DNA of 64,000 bases from an uncultured Draconibacterium sp. (GTDB taxonomy: Bacteria; Bacteroidota; Bacteroidia; Bacteroidales; Prolixibacteraceae). Each line of letters begins with the position of its first letter. Position 1 is the stretch's first letter. The position numbers and the translations under genes are program-made. Of the stretch, positions 6,481 to 60,842 are shown piece after piece. The DNA lies in assembly GCF_963675585.1 (NCBI RefSeq), contig NZ_OY776414.1:413001-477000 (forward strand), in the 5' to 3' direction. Under the pieces are notes generated by a model. It did no database searches and was not told where the DNA came from. It saw only the letters and a list, made by a program, of their open reading frames with translations.

Positions 6481-6979
6481 CGTTGTTCATTTTTAAAAAT
6501 TCATCACGCACTTTTTTGCGTGCTCTCGAAAGATTTACCCGTATGGCATTTACTTTCAAGTCGGTTGCTTCCGCAATTTCTTCGTACGAAAGCTGTTCTA
6601 CATCCCTCAGTTGCATTACCGTCCGTTGTAAGTCCGGTAACTTGTCGATCAGCCGTTTTATCTGACTGGCCGATTCACTTAATTCAACTTTTGAATGAAC
6701 GTCAACTGTTTTTTCTTTCAGCTTCCTGTCGGTTTCAGCATCAATCGGAACAGTTTTATTGGCTCGTATCACATCTAAACAGCGGTTTCGTGTCATTCGC
6801 ATGGTAAATGCTTCCATGTTTTCCACTTCATCCAGCGAATCCCGTTTTTGCCAAAGCTTCAGAAACACGTCCTGAACCACGTCACGCGCCAGGTCTTCAT
6901 CTTTTAAAAAGTGAGTTGCAAAGCGCAATAACTTTTTACTGACCGGTAATACGTTTATTTTAAAATCTTTGGCAACCAT
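6437..6979 (-). CDS. ECF-type RNA polymerase sigma factor
   Basis: A 180-residue sigma-70 family protein that has only regions 2 and 4. Region 2 (about 15-75) contains DLARDVVQDVFLKLWQ and the promoter -10 recognition helix around FTMRMTRNRCLDVIR. Region 4 (about 108-162) has LPDLQRTVMQLRDVEQLSYEEIA followed by the helix-turn-helix VNAIRVNLSRARKKVR. The start at 6979 puts a short lead before region 2, normal for the family. The 3' end overlaps the putative anti-sigma gene by 44 bases, so the two are probably translationally coupled. Upstream, 6980-7516 holds repeats and presumably the promoter, which may be autoregulated. Confidence 0.93.
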   Translation of the reverse strand: MVAKDFKINVLPVSKKLLRFATHFLKDEDLARDVVQDVFLKLWQKRDSLDEVENMEAFTMRMTRNRCLDVIRANKTVPIDAETDRKLKEKTVDVHSKVELSESASQIKRLIDKLPDLQRTVMQLRDVEQLSYEEIAEATDLKVNAIRVNLSRARKKVRDEFLKMNNDGNERSKIFTATLL

Positions 6980-47726: not shown

Positions 47727-48272
47727 ATGAAAGGATTGGTTTTTCGTGAATTCTTAAGCATGGTTGAAAAAGAGTATGGCTATGAAACTGTTGATTCAAT
47801 AATCGAATTGTCGCAGATACACAGCAAAGGTGCTTATACGCGTGTTGGAACCTATCCTCACCACGAAATGTTCGCCTTGGTGGAACAATTAAGCAAAATG
47901 GTGGATGTGCCAGAAAAACGTTTGTTGTATCTATTTGGCCGCTTTGCTTTTAACTCATTTCGAAAAGGGTATCCTGCTTTTTTTGAAGGGAAAAAAAGTT
48001 CGTTCGAAATATTTACCGATGTTGAGGGAATCATTCATGTTGAAGTGTTAAAACTCTACCCAGAAGCGGAACTTCCCACATTTGAAACAAATCTGGTAAA
48101 TAATAATGAAATGACAATGGTGTATCGTTCTAGCAGAAAGATGGGAGATTTTGCAGAAGGACTCATTGCGGAATGTATTCAGCATTTTAACGAAAAGGCC
48201 AATGTTGAAAAGAAGGATTTGGAACAAAATGGTTCAGTAGTTTTATTTACAATTAGAATGATGCATGAGTAA
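47727..48272 (+). CDS. H-NOX (heme NO-binding) sensor protein
   Basis: 181 residues, soluble. The haem-nitric oxide/oxygen binding fold: MKGLVFREFLSMVEKEYG at the N-terminus, the proximal haem ligand most likely H104 (GIIHVEVLKL), P117 thirteen residues on, and the diagnostic Y-x-S-x-R motif Y133-R-S-S-R137 that holds the haem propionates. Length matches stand-alone bacterial H-NOX. The 3' end overlaps the next gene, a hybrid kinase, by 8 bases; H-NOX proteins typically control the autokinase of an adjacent kinase when NO binds. The distal pocket is not clear by eye, so NO versus O2 selectivity is inferred from family context. Confidence 0.92.
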   Translation: MKGLVFREFLSMVEKEYGYETVDSIIELSQIHSKGAYTRVGTYPHHEMFALVEQLSKMVDVPEKRLLYLFGRFAFNSFRKGYPAFFEGKKSSFEIFTDVEGIIHVEVLKLYPEAELPTFETNLVNNNEMTMVYRSSRKMGDFAEGLIAECIQHFNEKANVEKKDLEQNGSVVLFTIRMMHE

Positions 48273-51200
48273 AGAGATTGAACTGTTAAAAAAGAAAATT
48301 GCAAGGGAAGAAGCTGCAAGAGAAGAGGCAGAACAACTCCTTGAACAAAAGTCGATGGAACTTTACCACTCCAACGAAAAACTCAAAGACCTGAATACAA
48401 ATTTGGAGAAATTGGTTGAAGCCAGAACTAAAAAATTACAGGAAACCGAGTTGGAGTACCAGTCGATGGTTGAAAGTATCAACGATATGATCTTTCGTCT
48501 CGACATGAAAGGAATCATTACTTTTACCAATCAAATTGCACTCAAAATCATTGGATCCGAAGATGAAGTATTGGTTGGTAAGAATATATTTGAGTTCATA
48601 AATGTTGATGACCGGAAACGTATTTTCAAACATTTTGCAAAGCAATATTTACTTCGAAATTGTATAAATTATTACGAAGTTGAAATCAAATCGAGGTTTG
48701 GTCACAAAATATGGCTTAGGTTAAATGTTCAGTTTTCGGGAAACAGCTGTGAGTTTTGTTTAAAAAAACAAATGGCTTTGGTTGGCCTCGGGCAAGAAAT
48801 TAAGGCTGATCATTCCTGTGCATTTTCTGAAATTATTGTGGTAGCCCACGATATTTCGCAACAAAAAATTGGTCAGGAGAAACTTGAAAAGAGTGAAAAA
48901 CGATACCGGGAGCTAACCGAGTCCTTACCGGAAATGATTTGTGAAGTGGATAGAGACGGAACTTTAATTTATGCAAATCAATTCGCAATCAGTAAGTTTG
49001 GGTACACCAAAGAAGAAGTACTGAACAATAATTTCAACATCATAAATCTCTTTCCTGAAAAAAGCAGAAAACAAGTTTATACAAATATTGGCTTGATTGT
49101 AAATAATGGACAATCAACTTCAACTGAATACCAGGTTATAAAAAAGAATGGCGAATTATTAACTGTAATCGTTTATACTTCACCCATTTGGGATCAGGAA
49201 AAAGTAGTTGGCTTACGTGGTGTAATGTTTGATATTTCCTTGCGAAAACAGCACGAACTGGAAATTGCCAAAAACCTGGAACAACAAGTGCTTTTGTCGG
49301 AAATATCAGTTAGTTACAATGCTTTGTCCGATTTCGAAAACAGAACCAATCAGGTTTTAAAAAAGATAGGCGAATTTTTAAGTGTTAGTAGGGTATACAT
49401 TTTCGAAAATAATGCCAGTGGTGAATTAACAAGTAATACCTACGAATGGTGTAACACCGGAATTGATGCGCAGATAGATGAATTACAGGACATACCTTAC
49501 ACTGTAATTCCTTCGTGGAAAAAAATGCTGAATGAAGACGGGATTGTTTTTTCGCAGAATATTGAAGAACTGCCAACAGATATTTATGAAATACTGGAGC
49601 CCCAGGGCATTAAATCCATTTTGGTTTTGCCGCTGAAAGATCACGGGAAACACATTGGATTTATGGGATTCGATGAGTGTGAAATAAATCGTACATGGAG
49701 TCCGTCGGAGATCGAACTATTACGTACCATTTCCAATCTGGTTTCGAATAATTTTCTTCGACAACGTATTCAGAACGAGTTGATTGAGAGTGAAAAGGAA
49801 AACAGGGTGATTATTGATTCTATTCCCGATGTAATTATTCATGCCAATAGCGACGGAAAGATTAAATCATTAAAATCGGCGCTTAATTCTAATTTGTCAA
49901 ACCTGATTAAAAGCAAAGAGAGCGCTACCATTTTTGAAGCGTTTAACGAAACATTATCAAAACGTTTACTTGATGCCATTTCTGAATGTTTGAAAAAAGA
50001 TAAATACCAATTTGAATTCAAAAATTTAAATTGGGATGAGTTTGAGTATTACGAGGCGCGTTTGGTAAAACTACTCACAAACGAGGTATTAATAATAATT
50101 CGCGATGTAACAGTAATAAAAGAGAACGAAAAACAATTACAGATTGCCAAAAACAAAGCAGAGGAAGCTTCGAAAATGAAGTCGCAGTTTTTAGCAAATG
50201 TTTCTCACGAAATACGCACCCCGCTGAATGCAATACTTGGATTTAGCCAGTGGTTGTTCGAAAATACTGACATTACCTTACACAAAGGATATTTGTCGTC
50301 GATAATAAACAGTGGACGTAATTTGCTCGATGTAATAAACGATATACTCGACCTTTCGAAACTCGAAACGGGATCGATAAATATTGAGTTGAATCCAATG
50401 AATTACAGGGAAGTTATTTCCGATGTAAAACTGGCATTTCAGGAAGAACTTGAACGTAAGGGTTTGCATTTTAATATAACTACCGATAAAGCCTTGCCGA
50501 ATTATATTTTAATGGACGACCTGCGTTTTTATCAGATTATTTATAACCTGGTAAGCAATTCGGTAAAATTTACAGAAAAGGGATACATTCATGTTTTGGC
50601 GGTTGCCACTCAAACCAATGTGGAAGGTGAAATTGACTTAAGAGTATCTATTGAAGACACCGGAATTGGGATACAGGAAAGTAAGCTGAAATCAATTTTT
50701 GAATCGTTTGCGCAGGAAGACGGACAAAGTACCCGTAACTACGACGGAACCGGTTTAGGTTTGGCCATTGTTGAAGGTTTGCTTAAAAAGATGAATGGTT
50801 CGGTTCAGGTTTCAAGCAAGGAAGGAAAAGGAACCACGTTTACTATAACTTTTAGTGGTGTAAAAGTCGATAAGTCAGATTATACTGAAAAGCAGCTAAA
50901 AAGCGAAAAACAACAACCAATGTCGGAGTTGGGACCATGTAAAATAATGATTGTTGACGACATTGATTTTAACATTGAGGTACTTAAAGCTTTAATAAAT
51001 TCCGATCAGGCGACATACATTGACGCATTCGACGGGAACGAAGCACTGGCAAAACTTCAAACAGTTGTTCCTGATATTATTTTTATGGATATAAGAATGC
51101 CGGGAATTGATGGATTTGAGGTAACGCGCATCATCCGAAATGATGAAAAATTGAAAGATATTCCAATCATTGCCTTCTCCGCATCTACTATCAAATCGAG

Positions 51201-51630
51201 GAAAGACATGATTGAACTTTTGTTTGATGATTTCTTGCAAAAACCTGTTTTCAAAAACGATGTTGAAGAAATACTCCGGAAATACATGGCTCCATTTCTT
51301 CAAACCAAAGGTGAAACAGGTTTGAAAGATGCCCAAAGCGATAATGAATTAACAGCCGCTTGTCTTGAAAAGTTACCAGAGGTAATTCAGGTACTGGAGC
51401 AAGAGTTTCTTCCCAAGTGGGAAACCATTAAAGATGGTTTGGTAATATACGAAGTGGAGAATTTTAAAAGCGAACTCTCTGAAATGGCCTATGACAAAGA
51501 GATTACACCTATTTCGGAATATTGCGTTGAGTTGGAACTTGGTCTGCAGTCGTTTGACATTGAATTGATTGAGAAACGATTGTCAGAATTCCCAAAACTT
51601 ATCGAAAATCTAAAAGCAAAATCGATTTAG
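48265..51630 (+). CDS. H-NOX-associated hybrid histidine kinase (PAS-PAS-GAF-PAS-HisKA-HATPase-REC)
   Basis: 1121 residues with no membrane segment. A coiled coil (1-60); PAS (62-200) with an insert containing C162-x2-C165 and H183-x-C185; PAS (about 210-327); GAF (about 345-500); a weak PAS (about 510-615); HisKA with H648 (NVSHEIRTPLNAIL); HATPase (about 745-870, NLVSNSVKFTEKG, GTGLGLAI); REC with D942 (IIFMDIRMPGIDG); and a C-terminal module of about 100 residues like a histidine phosphotransfer domain but without a clear phosphorylatable His. The start overlaps the H-NOX stop. H-NOX probably represses or activates this kinase by contact. The output regulator is not identified. Confidence 0.93.
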   Translation: MSKEIELLKKKIAREEAAREEAEQLLEQKSMELYHSNEKLKDLNTNLEKLVEARTKKLQETELEYQSMVESINDMIFRLDMKGIITFTNQIALKIIGSEDEVLVGKNIFEFINVDDRKRIFKHFAKQYLLRNCINYYEVEIKSRFGHKIWLRLNVQFSGNSCEFCLKKQMALVGLGQEIKADHSCAFSEIIVVAHDISQQKIGQEKLEKSEKRYRELTESLPEMICEVDRDGTLIYANQFAISKFGYTKEEVLNNNFNIINLFPEKSRKQVYTNIGLIVNNGQSTSTEYQVIKKNGELLTVIVYTSPIWDQEKVVGLRGVMFDISLRKQHELEIAKNLEQQVLLSEISVSYNALSDFENRTNQVLKKIGEFLSVSRVYIFENNASGELTSNTYEWCNTGIDAQIDELQDIPYTVIPSWKKMLNEDGIVFSQNIEELPTDIYEILEPQGIKSILVLPLKDHGKHIGFMGFDECEINRTWSPSEIELLRTISNLVSNNFLRQRIQNELIESEKENRVIIDSIPDVIIHANSDGKIKSLKSALNSNLSNLIKSKESATIFEAFNETLSKRLLDAISECLKKDKYQFEFKNLNWDEFEYYEARLVKLLTNEVLIIIRDVTVIKENEKQLQIAKNKAEEASKMKSQFLANVSHEIRTPLNAILGFSQWLFENTDITLHKGYLSSIINSGRNLLDVINDILDLSKLETGSINIELNPMNYREVISDVKLAFQEELERKGLHFNITTDKALPNYILMDDLRFYQIIYNLVSNSVKFTEKGYIHVLAVATQTNVEGEIDLRVSIEDTGIGIQESKLKSIFESFAQEDGQSTRNYDGTGLGLAIVEGLLKKMNGSVQVSSKEGKGTTFTITFSGVKVDKSDYTEKQLKSEKQQPMSELGPCKIMIVDDIDFNIEVLKALINSDQATYIDAFDGNEALAKLQTVVPDIIFMDIRMPGIDGFEVTRIIRNDEKLKDIPIIAFSASTIKSRKDMIELLFDDFLQKPVFKNDVEEILRKYMAPFLQTKGETGLKDAQSDNELTAACLEKLPEVIQVLEQEFLPKWETIKDGLVIYEVENFKSELSEMAYDKEITPISEYCVELELGLQSFDIELIEKRLSEFPKLIENLKAKSI

Positions 51631-51685: not shown

Positions 51686-52789
51686 TTACTCTTCCTCTTT
51701 GTATTTTGGAATTGTGAACCAAACTGTAGTACCTTCGCCCAGCGTGCTCTCAACGCCGATTTTTCCACCATTTACTTTTACAAACTCTTTGCACAGTACC
51801 AGTCCCAAACCACTTCCTTGCTCATTGTCGGTTCCGGTAGTAGAAACTTTGGAATCAATACAGAAGAGTTTACTTATGGTTTCGGGTTTAATACCAACCC
51901 CGGTATCAGTAACTTCTGTTCGTATAAAATCGCCGGTGTCTTCAGCACTTACCGTTATTTTACCTCCTTTGTTTGTAAATTTAATTGCATTAGCTATCAA
52001 ATTCCGGATGATCAAAAGTACCATGTTCGAATCACCAACGATAACTTTATCTTCAGTTGCCGATGAGCTAAGTTGAATATCTTTTGCCTGGGCAATATCT
52101 TTTTGTTTTTCGCAAACTTCGATGAACAGATCTTTAATTGCAATTTTTTCGGGATTAAATTTAATTGCACCTGTTTGCGAGCGGGCCCATTTTAGCAGAT
52201 CTTCCAGTAGTCCAAGTGTGTTTTTAGATGTTTTGGCAATGTCGTTTAAAAGCTCGTCAATTTCGTCCTGTGTTAAGTACTCGCGGTTCACCTGAATGAG
52301 TTCAACAAAGCTCATTATTATTCCAAACGCTCCTCGCAAATCATGCGACATAATGGAGAAAAACTTGTTTTTTGTGTTTACCTCTTCTTCAACAATCTGC
52401 TGTGCTTTTTTAAGCGAAAGATGCGTTTTTACACGGGCAAGTAACTCGCCGCCAATAAACGGTTTGGTAACATAATCAACCGCACCCAATTCAAAGCCTT
52501 TTACAATGTCTTCACTTTCTGTTTTTGCTGATAAAAATATTACAGGAATATCTTTGGTTTCAGGATTACTTTTTAAACGCTGACAGGTTTCGTGCCCATC
52601 CATCACCGGCATCATTACATCAAGTAATATTAAATCGGGATGAATTTTGGCAACCGTGTCGAGTGCCTGCTGGCCATTCATTGCAACAGCAAGTTCGCAA
52701 TTAAATTTTGCAAGCAAAGTTCCTAATACCTGTATGTTTTTGGGGACATCGTCAACAATTAGAATGATGGGTTTTTTTGTTGTTTCCAT
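51686..52789 (-). CDS. REC-histidine kinase, last gene of the stressosome-like operon
   Basis: 367 residues from ATG 52789 (METTKKPIILIVDD); an in-frame ATG at 52807 would add six residues and is also possible. Receiver with D57 (LILLDVMMPVMDG), HisKA with H149 in IMSHDLRGAFG, and HATPase with NLIANAIKFTNKG, TDTGVGI and GSGLGLVLC. No sensor domain. Same architecture as the gene at 43985. It follows the RsbT-type hybrid kinase gene by 19 bases, so phosphate may pass from that kinase to this receiver. Confidence 0.92.
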   Translation of the reverse strand: METTKKPIILIVDDVPKNIQVLGTLLAKFNCELAVAMNGQQALDTVAKIHPDLILLDVMMPVMDGHETCQRLKSNPETKDIPVIFLSAKTESEDIVKGFELGAVDYVTKPFIGGELLARVKTHLSLKKAQQIVEEEVNTKNKFFSIMSHDLRGAFGIIMSFVELIQVNREYLTQDEIDELLNDIAKTSKNTLGLLEDLLKWARSQTGAIKFNPEKIAIKDLFIEVCEKQKDIAQAKDIQLSSSATEDKVIVGDSNMVLLIIRNLIANAIKFTNKGGKITVSAEDTGDFIRTEVTDTGVGIKPETISKLFCIDSKVSTTGTDNEQGSGLGLVLCKEFVKVNGGKIGVESTLGEGTTVWFTIPKYKEEE

Positions 52790-52808
52790 TTGCACAATTC
52801 TTAACAAT

Positions 52809-54989
52809 CTATACTTTTAAAAGTCTATCTTCATACCTGTTTACAATCTTTTCGAACTGATTGATGGTGCCGGGGAGTTTTTCCATATCCAGGTTGGCAA
52901 CCTGTTCTTGTATGCCTTCGCTCCAGTTTGTAAGATCGGAAGCACTATATTTTGTTGCAACTTTTTGCACTCGAATTGCAAAGTCGCTAATTTCTGACAG
53001 AATAAATGTGTCGCGAATGGTTTCCCATCTGGGGTGTAAATCTGTTTTAACCTCTTCAATAAAATGGGGTAAACTAGCCATGAGCTCAGCAGTCATTTCC
53101 GGCTCAATCGAATTGTTCGTGTCTTGTTCGTTTGTGTTTGCCTGAAGTTTCTGGTGTTTTAAATGAATACTTAATTCAGAGATTAACTCTTTTCTCGAAA
53201 ATGGTTTTCTCAAATACGCGTCAAATCCCGAGTTTAGTATTAATTCTTTTTCTTCTTTTAGTGCAGAAGCCGTGCAAGCTACAATGGGTATATTTTTATA
53301 TTTTTCGTTTGCTTTCAGAATCGATGTTGCTTCAAAACCATCCATTACCGGCATTTTTAAATCCATCAGAATCAAGTCGGGGAGTGTTGAATCTACTTTA
53401 TCCAGGGCTCGTTGCCCGTTTTCGGCCGTTTCAATCCTGAAATCATAATCTTCTATAAATTTGATAACAAGCTTTCGATTTATGGCAACATCATCAACAA
53501 TCAGAATTGTAGCGGGTTCGAATACAATCTGGGCGTTTAAATCTTTTTGCTCAAAGGCTTCGGCATCACTTAAATCGCCAATCTCCAGGTTGTCAAATTT
53601 TACACAAAATTTACTGCCTTTATCCGGCTCGCTTTCCACCGATAAATTTCCGCCCATCATTGCCACCAAACGTTTTGTAATGGTAAGTCCAAGTCCGGTT
53701 CCGCCAAATTTATTAAGGTTCTGGTTTTTTTGCTGTTCAAAGGCTCCAAAAATATTTTCAATCTGGTCCTGCGGAATTCCAATACCTGTATCCTGAACAC
53801 AAAAACTAACACTTTGTAATTTACTTTCTTCTGTTAACCGGTGGTTGGTTACGCTTAGTTTTACAAAGCCATTGTCGGTAAACTTCATGGCGTTTCCGAT
53901 CAGGTTTATCAGAATTTGTTTTAGCCTGATGTCGTCAATTACAATTGCTTTTGGAATGGAAGGATCAATATCGATTATAAAATCGATTTGTTTCTCCTTC
54001 GATTTGTGCTTGAAAATTTGTCCAACATCGTTGATTAAGGATTTCAGGTTGGCTGATTGGTAGTTCAACTCAGTTTTTCCCGCTTCAATTTTCGATAAAT
54101 CAAGAATGTCGTTAATAATTCCCAATAACGAACTTCCGCTGGATGATATTGCTGTGGCAAAGCCTTTTAGGGTTTTGTCCGTAATTTTGTTTTCCAGTAT
54201 TTCTGCAAATCCAAGAATGGCATTCATGGGAGTACGAATTTCGTGGCTCATGTTAGCTAAAAATTCGCTTTTCGCTTTGTTTGCCATCACCGCTTCCTGT
54301 TTGGCCTTTTCAATGTCAATGGCTTTGTCTTCCAATTCGCGATTTAAAGCCACAACACCTTTGTTGGTTTCTTCCAGTTCCTGGTTAATGGTTTCAATTT
54401 CTTCGTTTCGTTCCTGTAATTTCTGAAGCAGAAAAACCAACTCGTTATTTTGCGAATTGATGGTGTCAACCATACTGGAATCGCCACGTTCCAATGTTTT
54501 CTGAAAAGCATTTTTAATGACAGTAAGACGTTTTCTGTCGAGGTGGGGGGCATAACGGGGCAGCCATTTGGCAATCGTTATCGTTGTTCCTTTGTCTTTT
54601 TCTGTTTCTATTTCAAAATCATCCATCAGGCGTTGCGATCCAATTAACCCAACACCCATTCCATTTTTCGAGTGAAAATTGCCATCCTGAATGGAATTCA
54701 GGTCTTCAATGCCTTTCCCTTTGTCTTTGAAAATTACGGCTATTCCCGATGTTTGCGCTTCCCGTTCCGCTAAAAAGAATTCGATGGTACCTGTTTGTGC
54801 ATGTTCCAATATGTTTCTGCTAAGTTCGGAAACAGCTGTACCAATTCGGATACAGGTTGTTTTATCAAAGTTTATTTCCTGTGCAAGGAGCGAACCAAGA
54901 TTACGTGCCCGAACTACATCCGATTCAAACTGAATCAGGATGGAACCGACACTATGAACTGTAGCGGATAATAAGAACGGTTGCGTCAT
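52809..54989 (-). CDS. RsbT-like ATPase fused to hybrid histidine kinase
   Basis: 726 residues. Residues about 1-145 are an RsbT/RsbW-type HATPase (N59 in [34 protein letters not shown]). A coiled coil (165-240) leads to HisKA with H249 ([13 protein letters not shown]), a second HATPase (about 360-475, [12 protein letters not shown]), and REC (about 500-620, [13 protein letters not shown]). The C-terminal 100 residues resemble those of the H-NOX kinase ([19 protein letters not shown]) but lack a His in the usual Hpt position. Two ATPase domains in one protein is unusual. The start overlaps the phosphatase gene by 38 bases, implying coupling. Confidence 0.9.
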
Positions 54990-56013
54990 CGTTATTTCTC
55001 GAAAAATTAGTAATTAAGTGCTCTGCATTTGCTTGCGGGTGTTTTGTCCAGTCCATCTCGTCGTAACGCCATCGGGAGGTAATTCCATCCGACGAAAAGT
55101 ATAAAAAATCGCCGGGGTTAAAATTGAACTCAAACACTCTTGGTGTTCGCATGTTGTGGCCGATAATTCCTCCGAAAGACAACAGCGTTTTCTTTTCGTT
55201 TGATGAGCATACAAAACCTTCAATATTACCGATCCCGCTAAAGGATAATTTGTTTGAAACGGTATCGATAAGTGCCATTCCTGCCACAGCTCCCCGGGTT
55301 CCCCGAAGCGCATTGTTTACATGCGTCAGTATCGAATTTACAGGTTGCTCTGCTTTAAGTATGATCTGTTCTCTTGCCAGCTGTGAGGCAATGTGTGCTT
55401 CTTTTCCGTGTCCCAACCCATCGATAACAGCTGCAATGGTTTTACCGGCTGAAATGTGATTTACCACATAACAATCGCCGTTTAACACTTCTCCGGGTTT
55501 ACTTCGCGATGAGGCTCCTATTTGTAAATCGCGATTGGTCCCGATCCACTTTTTTGATGGCACCCATTTAAGGGTTCTTATACAATTTGAATAGTTTTCG
55601 AAACCTGAAAGATGGTTTCCGTTTAGTAATGGCAAATCTTTTGGATTTAACTCAAAAATGTCGGAAAAACGACGGATGGAACCTAAGCCGATTCCAAGAG
55701 AAACTTTGTCGGAATAGCCATCTTTAATGGCCTTTTCCAAATCGGGAATCCCATTTCCGGAGTCGCAACACCAAACCTCAATGGCTTTTTGCTGGTCTTC
55801 TGTTTTTACTTCGCACACCAGTATTTTTCCTTTGCCACCACCGTGTTTTATTACATTGGTAACCAGTTCGGTAACCATTATTGCAATTTCACCGGTCTTA
55901 ACTTCGTCGAAACCCAGTTGTTTGGCAAGGCTAACCGATTTTCTTCGGCAAATTCCTATATCCGATTCATTTTCTATCAGAAGTGTTAATATATGATCGC
56001 GACTTATCTCCAT
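54952..56013 (-). CDS. RsbT-like ATPase fused to PP2C/SpoIIE-type phosphatase
   Basis: 353 residues. N-terminal anti-sigma-type HATPase (about 1-150): N53 in [24 protein letters not shown] and [12 protein letters not shown]. The C-terminal part (about 160-353) is a metal-dependent PPM/RsbX-like phosphatase with its acid residues intact: G179-D180, DGLGHG at 198-203, FSSDGIT and NNDDATVLI. It probably dephosphorylates the RsbR/RsbS STAS proteins to reset the switch, as RsbX does. Its start overlaps the RsbT gene by 10 bases. It has no PAS, GAF or membrane sensor. Confidence 0.9.
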
Positions 56014-56429
56014 TTCATTACTCTAACCGTTGTGCCTTTGCCCTTTTCCGATTGAATTTCAAAGTGATCAACCAGGCGTTTGGTTCCCGGGAGTCCATAT
56101 CCCATTCCCATTCCGGATGTATAACCATCACTCATTGCCAGCTCCATGTCTTCTATTCCGGGGCCCTCGTCAATACATGTTACTATAAGAGCTTGCTTGC
56201 CATTAATGTCTCCTCGTTCAATTACAACTTCTCCTCCTCCTGCATAATTGTACATATTTCGAAATAGCTCAGAAACAGCAGTTGTTATTCGGGTTTGTTC
56301 TACTATTCCCATGCGAGCTTCTTTTGCATGGTGACGAACAGTTTGCCGAACTTTAACAATATCGTGCTCGGTTATTACCGGATATCTGCCCAGTTCTTCC
56401 CAGCCGTTGTCAAAACCTATTGTGTTCAT
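56004..56429 (-). CDS. RsbT-like serine/threonine kinase (switch kinase)
   Basis: 141 residues, a single HATPase domain of the RsbT type. N box SELFRNMYNYAGGG, G1 box CIDEGPGIED, and the long G2 box MGMGYGLPGTKRLVDHF typical of RsbT rather than RsbW. In stressosomes it phosphorylates RsbR and RsbS, is then released and activates a downstream partner. Here the possible partners are the two following genes that carry similar domains. The 12-base gap to rsbS is typical of the rsbR-S-T order. Confidence 0.92.
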   Translation of the reverse strand: MNTIGFDNGWEELGRYPVITEHDIVKVRQTVRHHAKEARMGIVEQTRITTAVSELFRNMYNYAGGGEVVIERGDINGKQALIVTCIDEGPGIEDMELAMSDGYTSGMGMGYGLPGTKRLVDHFEIQSEKGKGTTVRVMKWR

Positions 56430-56441
56430 ATGAAGGTGGTA

Positions 56442-56822
56442 TTAAAAATCCTCGTCTTTAAGCCTTTCTTCGAGCATTTCTATGCCTTTCTCCATATTTA
56501 AAGCAGTATCTACTCCCGGCATTTCAAGCCCCAGCTCAACCAGAGTTATGGCAACTGCAGGCTGCATTCCAACTATAACAACGGCTGCATCCATAATAGA
56601 TGCCATCGAAGCCATTCCTGAAAGCATCCGGCCAATAAATGAGTCAACCATTTCAAGTACTGATATGTCGATTAATACACCTTTTGCACCTGTTTTCTCA
56701 ATCTCATTTAAAATTTGCGACTGCAGTTGAATAGCCAGTTTGTCGTGCATATCAACCTGTATAGAGACGATAAGGAAGTCACGAATCTTTATAATCGGTA
56801 TTTTCTTTTCGTGGAAATCCAT
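56442..56822 (-). CDS. RsbS-like STAS scaffold protein
   Basis: 126 residues, single STAS domain. The RsbS phosphosite is in place: S61 in DISVLEMVDSFIGR. GMQPAVAITLVELGLEM is the second conserved block. In Bacillus RsbS makes the stressosome core with RsbR and is phosphorylated by RsbT to release it. The neighbours (RsbR before, RsbT after) make the assignment secure. Confidence 0.93.
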   Translation of the reverse strand: MDFHEKKIPIIKIRDFLIVSIQVDMHDKLAIQLQSQILNEIEKTGAKGVLIDISVLEMVDSFIGRMLSGMASMASIMDAAVVIVGMQPAVAITLVELGLEMPGVDTALNMEKGIEMLEERLKDEDF

Positions 56823-56828
56823 CCTGTT

Positions 56829-57542
56829 TTAATTTTCGTTGTGTTCAATGTCAGCTTTCTCTGTTTTTACTTTGCCTTCGATTAGCTGATTGTTTTTACG
56901 AAGTGCAAAAATCATTGCATCTTGTAAGGTGGCTTTGGTACGAATAACAGATAAATCGATACCAAGGTGTACAATGGTTTGTGCAATGGCAGGACTAATT
57001 CCGGAAATGATACATTCGGCTCCCAGTAAACGTGCTGATGTTACTGTTTTTAATAAATGGTTGGCAACCTGAGTATCAACAGTTGGTACACCGGTAATAT
57101 CAAGAATTGATATGGTACAACCTGTATCTACAATTTTTTGCAACAGGTTTTCCATCATAATCTGTGTACGTTGACTGTCGAGTGTTCCAATTACCGGAAG
57201 AATTAGAATGTTATCCCATACTTTAGAAACAGGACTTGAGAGTTCGAGCAAGTCGTCTTGTTGTCGAACAATTGTACGTTGCTGTTCTTCAATTTTTCCC
57301 AATTTTTCTTCCAATTCAAGACGCATTTTTTTGCTCTGCTTCAACTCGTAAGTTAAGTCTTCAATCAGTATGTTAATTGCTTCTTCAACTCCGGTTAAAT
57401 CATCTTCGATTTCCGATTCAACTCTACCGTCTAAATCCCCTGCTGCCACCGACGACAACACATCCTCAATGTGTTCAATTCGTTGCTGTGCATTTTTAAA
57501 TGTAATATTTTCGCTCATCTCTATCGTTTGCTTTTTAACCAA
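56829..57542 (-). CDS. RsbR-like STAS sensor/scaffold protein
   Basis: 237 residues. The N-terminal part (about 20-105) has a HAMP-like segment (VLSSVAAGDLDGRVES) and a coiled coil (YELKQSKKMRLELEEKLGKIEEQQ), in place of the globin domain of Bacillus RsbR. The STAS domain (about 115-225) has the T157 phosphosite in DITGVPTVDTQ and GISPAIAQTIVHLGIDL, where T189 may be the second one. No haem, PAS or GAF sensor is visible, so the input may come through the coiled coil or a partner. The gene overlaps the preceding STAS-like gene by 22 bases. Confidence 0.9.
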   Translation of the reverse strand: MVKKQTIEMSENITFKNAQQRIEHIEDVLSSVAAGDLDGRVESEIEDDLTGVEEAINILIEDLTYELKQSKKMRLELEEKLGKIEEQQRTIVRQQDDLLELSSPVSKVWDNILILPVIGTLDSQRTQIMMENLLQKIVDTGCTISILDITGVPTVDTQVANHLLKTVTSARLLGAECIISGISPAIAQTIVHLGIDLSVIRTKATLQDAMIFALRKNNQLIEGKVKTEKADIEHNEN

Positions 57543-57883
57543 TTAATACCTTCTTCAACTGTTTTGAAAAAATTACCATTTGTTTTTAGGTTTCCCGTTT
57601 TTAATAAAACTTTGGCAATCATTCGGTTGGCAGCACTTCCTCCAATAAAAGCTACATCGGTAATTTGTGCGTCTCTTAACGACTGGTTGGAAAGTTCACG
57701 TGTTTCGCGGTTTTCAACTTTACTGGTTTTGCTAATTTGAATAACCATTTGTTTGTAGCGTTTCCCCTCTCCAAATTCCATCAGTTTTTTGTGTATAAAG
57801 GGAACGTCTGTTGTGAGGTAATCGCGGGTAAATTCCAGGTGTATGATCTCATCTTCCTGATCATACCATACTTTATGATCCAT
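57521..57883 (-). CDS. SpoIIAA-like STAS protein, first gene of the stressosome-like operon
   Basis: 120 residues from ATG 57883 (MDHKVWYDQEDEIIHLEF); a longer frame up to 57955 is less likely because its extra 24 residues do not look like protein. It resembles the SpoIIAA-like/CRAL-TRIO-type STAS family: IIHLEFTRDYLTTD, RETRELSNQSLRDAQITDVAF, GSAANRMIAKVLLKTG and the C-terminal FFKTVEEGINWLK. No phosphorylatable motif like VDS/VDT is seen. It is upstream of rsbR with a 22-base overlap. It might sense a lipid or ligand, or add to the scaffold (inference). Confidence 0.8.
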   Translation of the reverse strand: MDHKVWYDQEDEIIHLEFTRDYLTTDVPFIHKKLMEFGEGKRYKQMVIQISKTSKVENRETRELSNQSLRDAQITDVAFIGGSAANRMIAKVLLKTGNLKTNGNFFKTVEEGINWLKSKR

Positions 57884-58146: not shown

Positions 58147-58518
58147 GTGAAACAATTTGCTTCTATCATATTGATTATGTCGGTGTTAACCTTTCAGTTT
58201 TCGGAACTGCTTGTGTATGTTTCGTTTAAAATAAACCAGGATTATATTGCTAAAAATCTGTGCGTTGAAAAGGATGTTGAAGGTTCCACGTGTAAGGGGT
58301 GTTGTCATTTAAAGAAAAAAGTAAATGAGCAGCAGAAGCAAAAGGATAAATTGCCACTGAATGAATCGGAAAAACAAAACATTAACTTCTATGCGCACAT
58401 TTGTAATCTGAGTATGGCGCTTAACGAAGAGCAGGTTGAATACTCAATAAAAAAACAGCCGGAATACTTTCAGATTTTCTGTTTTAAAATTTTTCATCCA
58501 CCTAAAATTCAGCATTAA
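58147..58518 (+). CDS. Small Cys-rich protein next to a TonB receptor
   Basis: 123 residues, GTG start. A hydrophobic N-terminus (about 3-25) is either a membrane anchor or a signal. After YIAKNLC (C39) comes C49-K-G-C52-C53-H54, a cluster that could bind a soft metal such as Cu(I), then a Lys/Gln-rich linker. From memory, small proteins of the form NLCxxx..CxxxCHLxK occur before TonB receptors in other Bacteroidota. The gene lies 47 bases upstream of a receptor with copper-type motifs. The function is unknown; metal binding or metal-related sensing is the best guess. Confidence 0.75.
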   Translation: MKQFASIILIMSVLTFQFSELLVYVSFKINQDYIAKNLCVEKDVEGSTCKGCCHLKKKVNEQQKQKDKLPLNESEKQNINFYAHICNLSMALNEEQVEYSIKKQPEYFQIFCFKIFHPPKIQH

Positions 58519-58565
58519 TTTTTCACCCCAAATGTTCTTATTTATAACAATTTAATCATTTCAAA

Positions 58566-60842
58566 ATGAAAATAAAACGTTTCATTTCTGGAATACGAGA
58601 GTACCATATTTTGCTGTTCTTTAGTTTAATGTGTTCGTTCTCGTATGCTCAGGAAAAAACCATTCAGGTAGTGGATGAAGAATCAAAAAAAGGCATTTCA
58701 GATGTTTATTTTCAATACGATAAAACCAGTGGATTTACCAACGAGAGTGGTGAGTTTAATCTTGAATACTTAGAAGGTGTAACACTTTTTTTATCGCACA
58801 TTCAGTACGGGAAAATACCAGTGAGTACCGAAAGTATTGTTGAAGCTTTCCGAAGTGGAATATTAAGTATCAGGGAGGCAAGCAATTTTTTAATGCCGGT
58901 AACTTTGGTTCAGGTACAGCATGGCACGGGCGACAAGAGCAAACTCGATATTTCGGTGCAAAATAAACTGGCGCACGATGCAGGAAATTTACTGGAGGAG
59001 GTTCCGGGAATATCTAGCATTCGAAAAAGCGGTGCATATGGTTTCGATCCTGTTTTACGCGGCTTTAAATACGATCAGCTAAACCTGGTTTTGGATGGCG
59101 TACAGACAGCTTCTGCTGCTTGTCCAAACCGGATGGATCCGGCAGCAAGTCAAATTCCGATAAACATGATTTCGCAGGCTGAAGTTTTAAAAGGTCCACA
59201 CGGTTTACGTTTTGGTAACGCCTTTGGCGGCACGATTAACTTTAAAAGCAGTGCACCCGATTTTAAACAAAAACCAACACCGCTTGGCCGCCTCGGAACC
59301 AGTTACGAAAGTAACGGTAAGATTTACCGAACCGAAGGAGTTGCCGGAGTTGCCGGAAAAAAAATCGACTTTAGATTATTTGGCTCCTATTCAAGCGGTG
59401 AAGATTACACCGATGGCGACGGAGTACAAATAGCAGCAAATTTTAATCGATTGAATTACGGCGGAAAATTGGCTTTCAAATTAAGCGAGACACAGGATTT
59501 GGGTGTGTTCGTATCGAATAATATTGCAAAAGATGTCGACTTTCCGGCTTTACCAATGGATTTGCGTGAGGATAATACATGGTTGTTTAATGCCAGTCAT
59601 TCAGCAAGATTTTATGGCTCGTCGCTCACCTCGTGGAATACCAGTTTGTATGGTACAATGGTAAATCATTTAATGGACAACTTTGATAAGGTAATAGTCC
59701 CAAGAACAGTAGATGCCGAAACTGATGCCGAAACAACAAATTACGGTGGCCGTTCGGAAATGCGTTTTGATTTTGAAAACAGTCACTTGTTTGGTGGAGT
59801 AGATTATCGTTTTGAATCGGCAAAAGGATACCGGACGCGAAATATGTTAATGGGACCAATGGCCGGAAAAGTATTTACCGATAATGTTTGGCAGGATGCA
59901 GAAGTAAATCGGGCCGGATTATTTGGAGAATGGCACATTTCTCAGCCCGGGTTTCAGTTTGTTGTATCCGGACGTGTAGATATGAACAGCTCAAGTGCTA
60001 AAAATCCTGATCCGCGTTTTACTGCCATTTACGACGATCTGGAAGCCACACAGCTGCATCCTTCTGTCAGCGTAGGCGGAACACGATTGTTTAATCCAAA
60101 ATTCTCGTTGGGTTTGTGGGTGGCAATGGCTACACGGAGTCCCGGAATAACGGAACGCTACATCAATCAGTTTCCGGTTGGTTTAGATCCGTACGAAATG
60201 TTGGGTAATCCCGAACTCGATCCGGAGGTTAACAATCAACTCGATTTGGTTTTTAAATACCAAACTCCTGCAGCCGGTGTTACAGTTAATTTATTTACGT
60301 CGGTATTGCGCAACTATATTTCGTCCGAAATACGGGATGATTTAAGCCCTGCATTGCCAACTTCGCCGGGTGTACGACAGTTTGTAAATATAAAGGATGC
60401 AACTATGGCCGGATTTGAAATGAGCTGGACACAGAAAATGGGAACGTTTTTAAGTCACGATGCCAGTTTGGTTTATACCTACGGTAAAAATAAGTTGGAA
60501 GATGAACCGCTGCCTGAAATTCCTCCGCTTGAGTTTCGTTATCGTTTAATGGGCAGCTTTTTAAACGACAAACTTCAACCTGAAATAATGTGGAGATCGG
60601 TGCAAAAACAAGATCGGATTGCCAGTTCGTATGGCGAAACAAAAACGCCGGGATTTAATGTGGTTGATGCAAAAATTTCGTGCTTGTTCAATAAATCCAT
60701 CACTGCAACCGGTGGTGTTCAGAATTTATTTGATGAGGCGTATTACGAGCATTTGGCACGCTCGGTTCGCGGAGCAGAAACCCGGCCTATTTATTCCCCC
60801 GGCAGAAGTTTTTATGTGACATTAACATTTAGCTTTTTATAA
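58566..60842 (+). CDS. TonB-dependent receptor, putative copper importer (OprC/NosA-like)
   Basis: 758 residues with signal peptide ending SFSYAQ, a short carboxypeptidase-regulatory-like domain (about 32-90), a plug (about 130-235, VPGISSIRKSG..DPVLRGF and EVLKGPHGLRFGNAFGG) and a 22-strand-type barrel ending in TLTFSFL. In the plug, C186-P-N-R-M190 matches the C-x3-M motif, and H368-L-M370 the H-x-M motif, of copper receptors such as P. aeruginosa OprC. The spacing is 184 residues from C186 to M370, against 182 from C143 to M325 in OprC as I recall. Cu import is therefore the best hypothesis. It is followed by a terminator. Confidence 0.9.
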   Translation: MKIKRFISGIREYHILLFFSLMCSFSYAQEKTIQVVDEESKKGISDVYFQYDKTSGFTNESGEFNLEYLEGVTLFLSHIQYGKIPVSTESIVEAFRSGILSIREASNFLMPVTLVQVQHGTGDKSKLDISVQNKLAHDAGNLLEEVPGISSIRKSGAYGFDPVLRGFKYDQLNLVLDGVQTASAACPNRMDPAASQIPINMISQAEVLKGPHGLRFGNAFGGTINFKSSAPDFKQKPTPLGRLGTSYESNGKIYRTEGVAGVAGKKIDFRLFGSYSSGEDYTDGDGVQIAANFNRLNYGGKLAFKLSETQDLGVFVSNNIAKDVDFPALPMDLREDNTWLFNASHSARFYGSSLTSWNTSLYGTMVNHLMDNFDKVIVPRTVDAETDAETTNYGGRSEMRFDFENSHLFGGVDYRFESAKGYRTRNMLMGPMAGKVFTDNVWQDAEVNRAGLFGEWHISQPGFQFVVSGRVDMNSSSAKNPDPRFTAIYDDLEATQLHPSVSVGGTRLFNPKFSLGLWVAMATRSPGITERYINQFPVGLDPYEMLGNPELDPEVNNQLDLVFKYQTPAAGVTVNLFTSVLRNYISSEIRDDLSPALPTSPGVRQFVNIKDATMAGFEMSWTQKMGTFLSHDASLVYTYGKNKLEDEPLPEIPPLEFRYRLMGSFLNDKLQPEIMWRSVQKQDRIASSYGETKTPGFNVVDAKISCLFNKSITATGGVQNLFDEAYYEHLARSVRGAETRPIYSPGRSFYVTLTFSFL

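Follow-up and report, generated by a model that had tools for sequence, protein, structure and literature searches.

A seven-gene operon of Draconibacterium appears to join a stressosome to two histidine kinases. In the 64-kb stretch analysed here (the window, part of contig C4 in a genome of 6.03 Mb), seven minus-strand open reading frames (ORFs) run from 57883 to 51686 and encode a DUF7793 protein, RsbR, RsbS, RsbT, a T-PP2C phosphatase, a hybrid kinase (T-HK-REC) and a last kinase (REC-HK), where T denotes an RsbT-type ATPase domain, HK a histidine kinase and REC a receiver. The products are read as a cytoplasmic stressosome with a two-component output, in which the hybrid kinase would itself be a client of the stressosome through its own T domain; we hold this reading with somewhat better than even confidence. 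The first-pass annotation of this DNA had described seven closely packed genes with these domains, and the ORFs and Pfam domains are indeed present: counted from the listed starts (first gene 57883), the spacings are -22, +6, +12, -10, -38 and +1 bases, and neighbouring genes never lie apart or overlap by more than 38 bases. Its description of the first product as STAS-like holds for the fold, as the Pfam label is DUF7793 and not STAS, and the model is closest to STAS/SpoIIAA structures. The genes and their parts are as follows.

57521–57883, minus strand: DUF7793 protein, first gene, 120 aa, STAS/SpoIIAA-like fold (Pfam PF25056 over cut-off; AlphaFold2 mean pLDDT 82.4; best PDB folds STAS/SpoIIAA).
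56829–57542, minus strand: RsbR-like protein, soluble HAMP-like N-terminus and C-terminal STAS domain (Pfam, 3.5e-16; PDB sequence matches to stressosome RsbR-type chains).
56442–56822, minus strand: RsbS, 126 aa, with S61 in the position of S56 in Listeria (phmmer, 2e-31 to RsbS 6jhk).
56004–56429, minus strand: RsbT, 141 aa, with Bergerat ATPase motifs (Pfam domain scan and motif check).
54952–56013, minus strand: RsbT-type ATPase domain fused to a SpoIIE/PP2C phosphatase, 353 aa (PF13581, 5e-11; PF07228, 2e-13).
52809–54989, minus strand: hybrid kinase, 726 aa, with RsbT-type ATPase domain, coiled coil, HisKA (H249), HATPase, REC (D543) and a helical bundle lacking a histidine.
54540–54989, minus strand: RsbT-type domain of the hybrid kinase, residues 1–150, the proposed stressosome-docking part (PF13581, 8.4e-13; clade in the T-domain tree).
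51686–52807, minus strand: REC-HisKA-HATPase kinase, last gene (REC D57 and H149, numbered from an ATG at 52789).

RsbR and RsbS would together make up the STAS core. RsbS consists of a single STAS domain with a phospho-acceptor serine, matches B. subtilis RsbS (6jhk) at 2e-31 and aligns S61 with S56 of Listeria. RsbR combines a sensor region with a C-terminal STAS domain in which T157 aligns with the phospho-acceptor T209 of Listeria, and S123 occupies the position of Listeria T175; its best PDB sequence matches are 7o0i_B (3e-33), 9o3o and 7b0u, with Listeria RsbR chains at 9e-29 and weaker. Orthologues begin at an ATG at 57518, which is more likely to be the RsbR start than the listed one. 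RsbT has the N, DxGxG and GxGxG motifs of a small Bergerat-type kinase, and a PDB sequence search with it gave no match. The T-PP2C protein is not a single-domain RsbX, as it bears an additional RsbT-type domain at its N-terminus, and from its position it is probably an RsbX-like reset enzyme. The highest mean hydropathy over 19 residues in the seven proteins is 1.95, within the STAS domain of RsbS, and all other values are at or below 1.56; because these maxima are low, the operon proteins are probably cytoplasmic.

The core and the kinases are conserved as a unit. RsbS occurs in nine of the 37 genomes of the genus, and the gene order, which had been proposed as a point to check in relatives, is shared by all nine: the complete seven-gene chain is found in the window and in eight other loci (L052-L059). 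The same order in eight further genomes therefore rules out chance. A metagenome-assembled genome (MAG; G014, 70% complete) has both kinase genes (L060, on a contig shared with L039), with no RsbS match in the genome and no rsbT or T-PP2C match in the 2.7 kb upstream of the kinases; the T domain of its kinase has lost the glycine motif.

No sigma-B branch accompanies this unit, as the first-pass annotation had claimed. A SigB/F/G model matches 14 places in the genome at E 0.001, none of them over the cut-off and none in the window, and neither a SigB/F/G factor nor an RsbV/RsbW pair is found at the locus. A conserved sigma target near the operon in relatives had been named as evidence to the contrary; five sigma proteins of the genome (read as two of RpoD type and three smaller) were compared with 37 related stretches, and no relative of any of them was found at E 1e-3. 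The window does hold an ECF-like sigma gene some 45 kb away from the operon; by tblastn, two small sigma proteins of this genome match it at 6482-6943 on the minus strand, with 25-28% identity. Elsewhere the genome has two RsbW-like genes (C1:1049818 and C4:3177980) and, standing alone, a STAS gene of 118 aa. These would suit a scheme in which co-transcription is all that links the kinases to the core and the stressosome has an unlinked output, such as one of the RsbW-like genes. We regard this as very improbable: core and kinases occur together in 9/9 RsbS-positive genomes of the genus, the hybrid kinase itself bears an RsbT-class domain, and the RsbW-like genes, with neighbours judged by eye, lie one among ybeY and mnmG and the other next to a gene resembling an iron-sulphur hydrogenase.

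The N-terminus of the hybrid kinase is central to the proposed output. The first-pass annotation proposed an interaction of RsbT with it, which would parallel the docking of RsbT on RsbU. The Pfam scan gives no RsbU_N at E 0.01 and an RsbT-type ATPase domain instead, which makes such docking less likely; since this domain is of the RsbT class and has intact motifs, the kinase may bind RsbS/RsbR itself. The closest named matches of the protein come from Draconibacterium orientale, Maribellus maritimus, a Prolixibacteraceae MAG and a Bacteroidales MAG. In the AlphaFold2 model, a low-confidence helix that spans residues 173-268 and takes in the first HisKA helix joins the T domain to HisKA, and it is here that a change could be passed on. 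A fold search with the full protein listed 50 rows, mostly HK-type structures, which were uninformative on both the T domain and the C-terminal bundle.

A wider survey separates two kinds of output kinase. In a Bacteroidota sample of 395 genomes (RsbS threshold E 1e-20), 14 were RsbS-positive, the window's own included, and the 13 others were examined. Nine of the 14 loci have a T-PP2C gene and then a kinase with an RsbT-type N-terminus, and none of these nine kinases has RsbU_N (Pfam, E 0.01). Their T domain is intact in the window and in L090, where the T-kinase follows a REC-REC-kinase gene, and degenerate in the other seven (L085-L089, L091, L092). The degenerate domains have lost the ATP motifs and retained the N-terminal part, which a hidden Markov model (HMM) of the intact kinase T domains matches at 1e-14 to 4e-8; this retention in 7/9 loci fits docking, and not catalysis, as the shared role. 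In the remaining five loci (L093-L097), the PP2C is single-domain and the PAS kinase has RsbU_N at its start (above the Pfam cut-off in four, 0.5 bits under it in L097). A hidden T domain on these five kinases was considered and rejected, as the T-domain HMM matches only their C-terminal ATPase and the N-terminus is RsbU_N. Both adaptors on one output kinase were found in 0/14 loci.

This distribution bears on the RsbU-like wiring, in which free RsbT would leave the stressosome on stress and activate the hybrid kinase by binding its N-terminus or coiled coil. RsbT acts on RsbU in this manner, and two papers place RsbU_N kinases in stressosome operons (PMC12143880, PMC9237108). The long helical linker in the modelled hybrid kinase would suit such binding, and T-class ATPases might heterodimerise. 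Against it, RsbU_N is absent at E 0.01 from the window kinase and from the other T-type kinases scanned, and it sits on the kinases of five Bacteroidota loci without T fusions, in four of them over the cut-off. Since RsbU_N is absent here and present where T fusions are absent in the Bacteroidota sample, the kinase as a client of the core is favoured over RsbT docking, and we consider the RsbU-like wiring unlikely, at roughly one chance in five.

The T domains could also serve another purpose. Both fused T domains of the window (kinase and T-PP2C) have intact ATPase motifs and DUF7793 has a STAS-like fold, so they could be Ser/Thr kinases with further STAS proteins, DUF7793 for instance, as substrates, in a second partner switch that leaves the histidine kinase part with an input of its own. 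Conversely, intact T-kinases occur in eight loci without a phmmer relative of DUF7793 (L044, L090, L113, L114, L117, L118, L121, L122), the ATPase motifs are lost in the seven Bacteroidota loci above, and DUF7793 tracks with the HAMP-like N-terminus; a second partner switch is thus doubtful, at little more than one chance in ten.

The T-kinase extends beyond Bacteroidota. Sixteen further loci (L041, L044, L045, L047, L113-L124) were obtained by searches and are not a random sample; among plasmid records with RsbS, 12/96 were read. Eight of them have an intact T-kinase (L041, L044, L113, L114, L117, L118, L121, L122) and two a degenerate T domain on the kinase (L116, L120). D. radiodurans MP1 (L113) and Stutzerimonas (L044) have the same R-S-T-[T-PP2C]-[T-HK-REC]-[REC-HK] chain without DUF7793, and an intact T-type kinase is followed by REC-HK, as in the window, in these two and in another Deinococcus (L118), whose T-kinase lacks REC. 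D. radiodurans is genetically tractable. In L045 the kinase lies upstream of RsbR and none was recognised downstream, and in L123 the output region is lost to the end of the record. On a Streptomyces plasmid (L119:9065-10435, plus strand), a degenerate kinase-type T domain sits on a second PP2C phosphatase, suggesting that the adaptor was exchanged between output enzymes.

A tree of 64 T domains (27 RsbT, 24 T-PP2C and 13 intact T-kinase) resolves the classes. It omits nine degenerate domains, two kinases without T, all T domains of L047, L054-L057, L059, L060, L094, L096, L097 and L116, the free RsbT and T-PP2C of L120, and the second T protein of L045. The T-PP2C domains form their own branch (support 100/99), and the intact kinase T domains from Bacteroidota, Pseudomonadota and Deinococcota form one clade with a single free Polyangia RsbT (97/93), with the other free RsbTs outside; the three class labels need 3 changes on the tree versus 28.6 when shuffled. 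As a separate clade, the kinase T domain is therefore no recent copy of the adjoining rsbT. Judged by this phylogeny, it is an old cross-phylum class, spread via descent or operon transfer.

Several observations weigh against the hybrid kinase as a stressosome client. The kinase T clade is not exclusive, and a group of the 13 kinase domains alone is neither recovered nor rejected (approximately unbiased test, p 0.336). Xanthomonas L124 and Variovorax L115 keep T-PP2C and have a kinase without a T domain, so a T domain on the kinase is not essential. In Thiorhodovibrio L047 the kinase bears RsbU_N, and the locus also has a second free T protein. A degenerate T domain could not be freed by kinase action of its own. 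AlphaFold2 modelled the hybrid kinase as a monomer, at a pTM of 0.37 and with the linker poorly predicted. Composition, conservation and homology are observed here, and docking, switching, phosphotransfer and reset are inferred.

With the hybrid kinase as a client, signalling might proceed as follows. The STAS-fold DUF7793 protein would act on the HAMP-like N-terminus of RsbR as input, and three RsbT-class ATPases would be able to dock on the core: free RsbT, T-PP2C and the T-hybrid kinase. At rest, the hybrid kinase would be held on RsbS/RsbR by its own RsbT domain. Phosphorylation of RsbS S61 and RsbR T157 by RsbT would then release or re-orient the kinase, the coiled coil would alter its activity, and phosphate would pass from H249 to its own REC and/or that of the last gene. 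Dephosphorylation of the core by T-PP2C would reset the system.

Phosphate could be transferred through H249 and D543 of the hybrid kinase and D57 of the last gene product. The first-pass annotation had named H249 and D57 correctly, the latter when counted from the ATG at 52789, the probable start; from the listed TTG the same aspartate is D63. Its overall reading is supported in part, by an RsbRST core that has no sigma-B branch and is joined to two kinases. An H-D-H-D relay is not supported: the C-terminal bundle of the hybrid kinase was considered as a histidine phosphotransfer (HPt) domain and rejected for its lack of a conserved His and of a Pfam HPt match, no HPt is found in the operon (the rest of the genome was not searched for one), and none of the seven genes encodes a DNA-binding regulator.

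On the input side, a short HAMP-like stretch replaces RsbRD_N in the window RsbR. RsbRD_N gives no match there up to E 5 and is likewise missing from the RsbR of L041; among ten RsbRs of other loci tested, it is over the cut-off in nine and below it in L093. The HAMP label is weak: Pfam PF00672 scores 0.056 in L111, 0.066 in L041 and 0.11 in L125 and is absent from L131 and from the window RsbR, which has only the related McpB_HAMP_1st at 0.012, and hhalign comparisons give probabilities of 1-21%. DUF7793 was found in 17 genomes of another Bacteroidota sample, one of 296 genomes, over the cut-off in 16. It lies directly upstream of a protein with a HAMP-like stretch in 13 of 21 loci and not in the other eight (ORFs judged by eye), and eight of these 13 pairs come from one family (six genomes). 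The stretch is joined to STAS (RsbR), to a histidine kinase (L111, L131) or to PAS and an AraC helix-turn-helix (L125). Such soluble proteins downstream of DUF7793 are seen at L111:97-1881 (minus strand), L125-L131, L136/L144, L138/L145, L141 and L142. Better evidence than the HAMP label comes from an HMM of the neighbours. Built from the eight of the one family and run over 2221 ORFs (a set enriched for DUF7793 neighbours), it gave non-training matches at E <=0.02 solely in DUF7793 neighbours, with the next match at 0.43; RsbRs of this operon matched at 7e-4 to 0.02. This is support, not proof, for the pairing. DUF7793 and the HAMP-like N-terminus could possibly be a general input pair, and this suggests what a domain of unknown function might do.

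Taken more broadly, there may be two old and mutually exclusive wirings, one in which RsbU_N is bound by free RsbT and one in which an RsbT-domain adaptor seats the kinase on the stressosome. The second would be a cross-phylum module with three RsbT paralogues that in this lineage gained DUF7793 and a soluble HAMP-like input shared with kinases and AraC regulators. We put this forward tentatively, at just under even confidence. It concerns how stressosomes without sigma B send out their signal, for which a kinase with its own RsbT-class domain offers a direct, testable route, and the wiring in unrelated bacteria suggests how stressosomes could work without a sigma factor.

Two neighbours flank the operon. 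On its downstream side lies a convergent kinase, found there in 4/8 other loci of the genus.

48265–51630, plus strand: PAS-PAS-GAF-HisKA-HATPase-REC kinase, convergent to the operon (Pfam scan; adjoins 5/9 operons).

Pairwise BLASTP (1e-12) gives 22% identity between its C-terminal part and the corresponding part of the T-HK-REC kinase, and this convergent kinase is perhaps associated with the operon. Upstream of the operon and divergent from it lie a TonB receptor and a 123-aa protein bearing a CxxCC motif (58147-60842, plus strand), as they do in 6/8 other loci; the closest NCBIfam model of the receptor is TonB-copper, below its cut-off.

Stressosomes with two-component genes are a published class, as the first-pass annotation noted. 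Heinz et al. (2022; PMC9237108) describe RSTX modules followed by HisKA/REC proteins, place RSTX modules in Bacteroidetes too and note RsbU_N on signalling proteins; RsbU_N on kinases in stressosome operons is also described in a second paper (PMC12143880). Among the downstream proteins that PMC9237108 took into account, RsbU_N was not found on most, and no positive result is given there for RsbT binding the Vibrio kinase. For an RsbT-HK fusion or T-domain adaptor, no description was found in literature titles and abstract openings, which did not cover a 2005 survey of RsbRST output modules (10.1159/000088837) or 10.1016/j.str.2012.01.003, so an earlier description is possible. The D. radiodurans kinases DR_B0028/DR_B0029, which from gene order we infer to be those of L113 (DR_RS15570-15595), are presumed to share regulation with an anti-sigma operon (Makarova 2001, cited in PMC6501615), and DR_B0028 is elevated during recovery from vacuum (PMC6501615).

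The Bacillus/Listeria sigma-B stressosome has in common with this operon the RsbS/RsbR STAS core with phospho-acceptor positions (here S61 and T157) and the RsbT kinase, whereas the operon has no RsbU, RsbV, RsbW or sigma B, and S123 stands in for Listeria RsbR T175. The RSTX two-component modules of Vibrio vulnificus and others likewise have RsbR-RsbS-RsbT, a PP2C, then histidine kinase and receiver genes and no sigma B. As far as their description goes (PMC9237108), their phosphatase is single-domain, their output has RsbU_N or no recognised adaptor and their RsbRs were chosen for globin sensors; here, RsbT domains are on phosphatase and kinase, the RsbR N-terminus is HAMP-like and a DUF7793 gene lies upstream. 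In the D. radiodurans MP1 operon (DR_RS15570-15595), six genes match in order and main domains. Unlike the window, it has RsbRD_N on RsbR and no DUF7793 match, and its T-kinase (577 aa) stops soon after REC and thus has no C-terminal bundle. The adaptor dichotomy and the DUF7793/HAMP-like input therefore appear to be additions to a known class.

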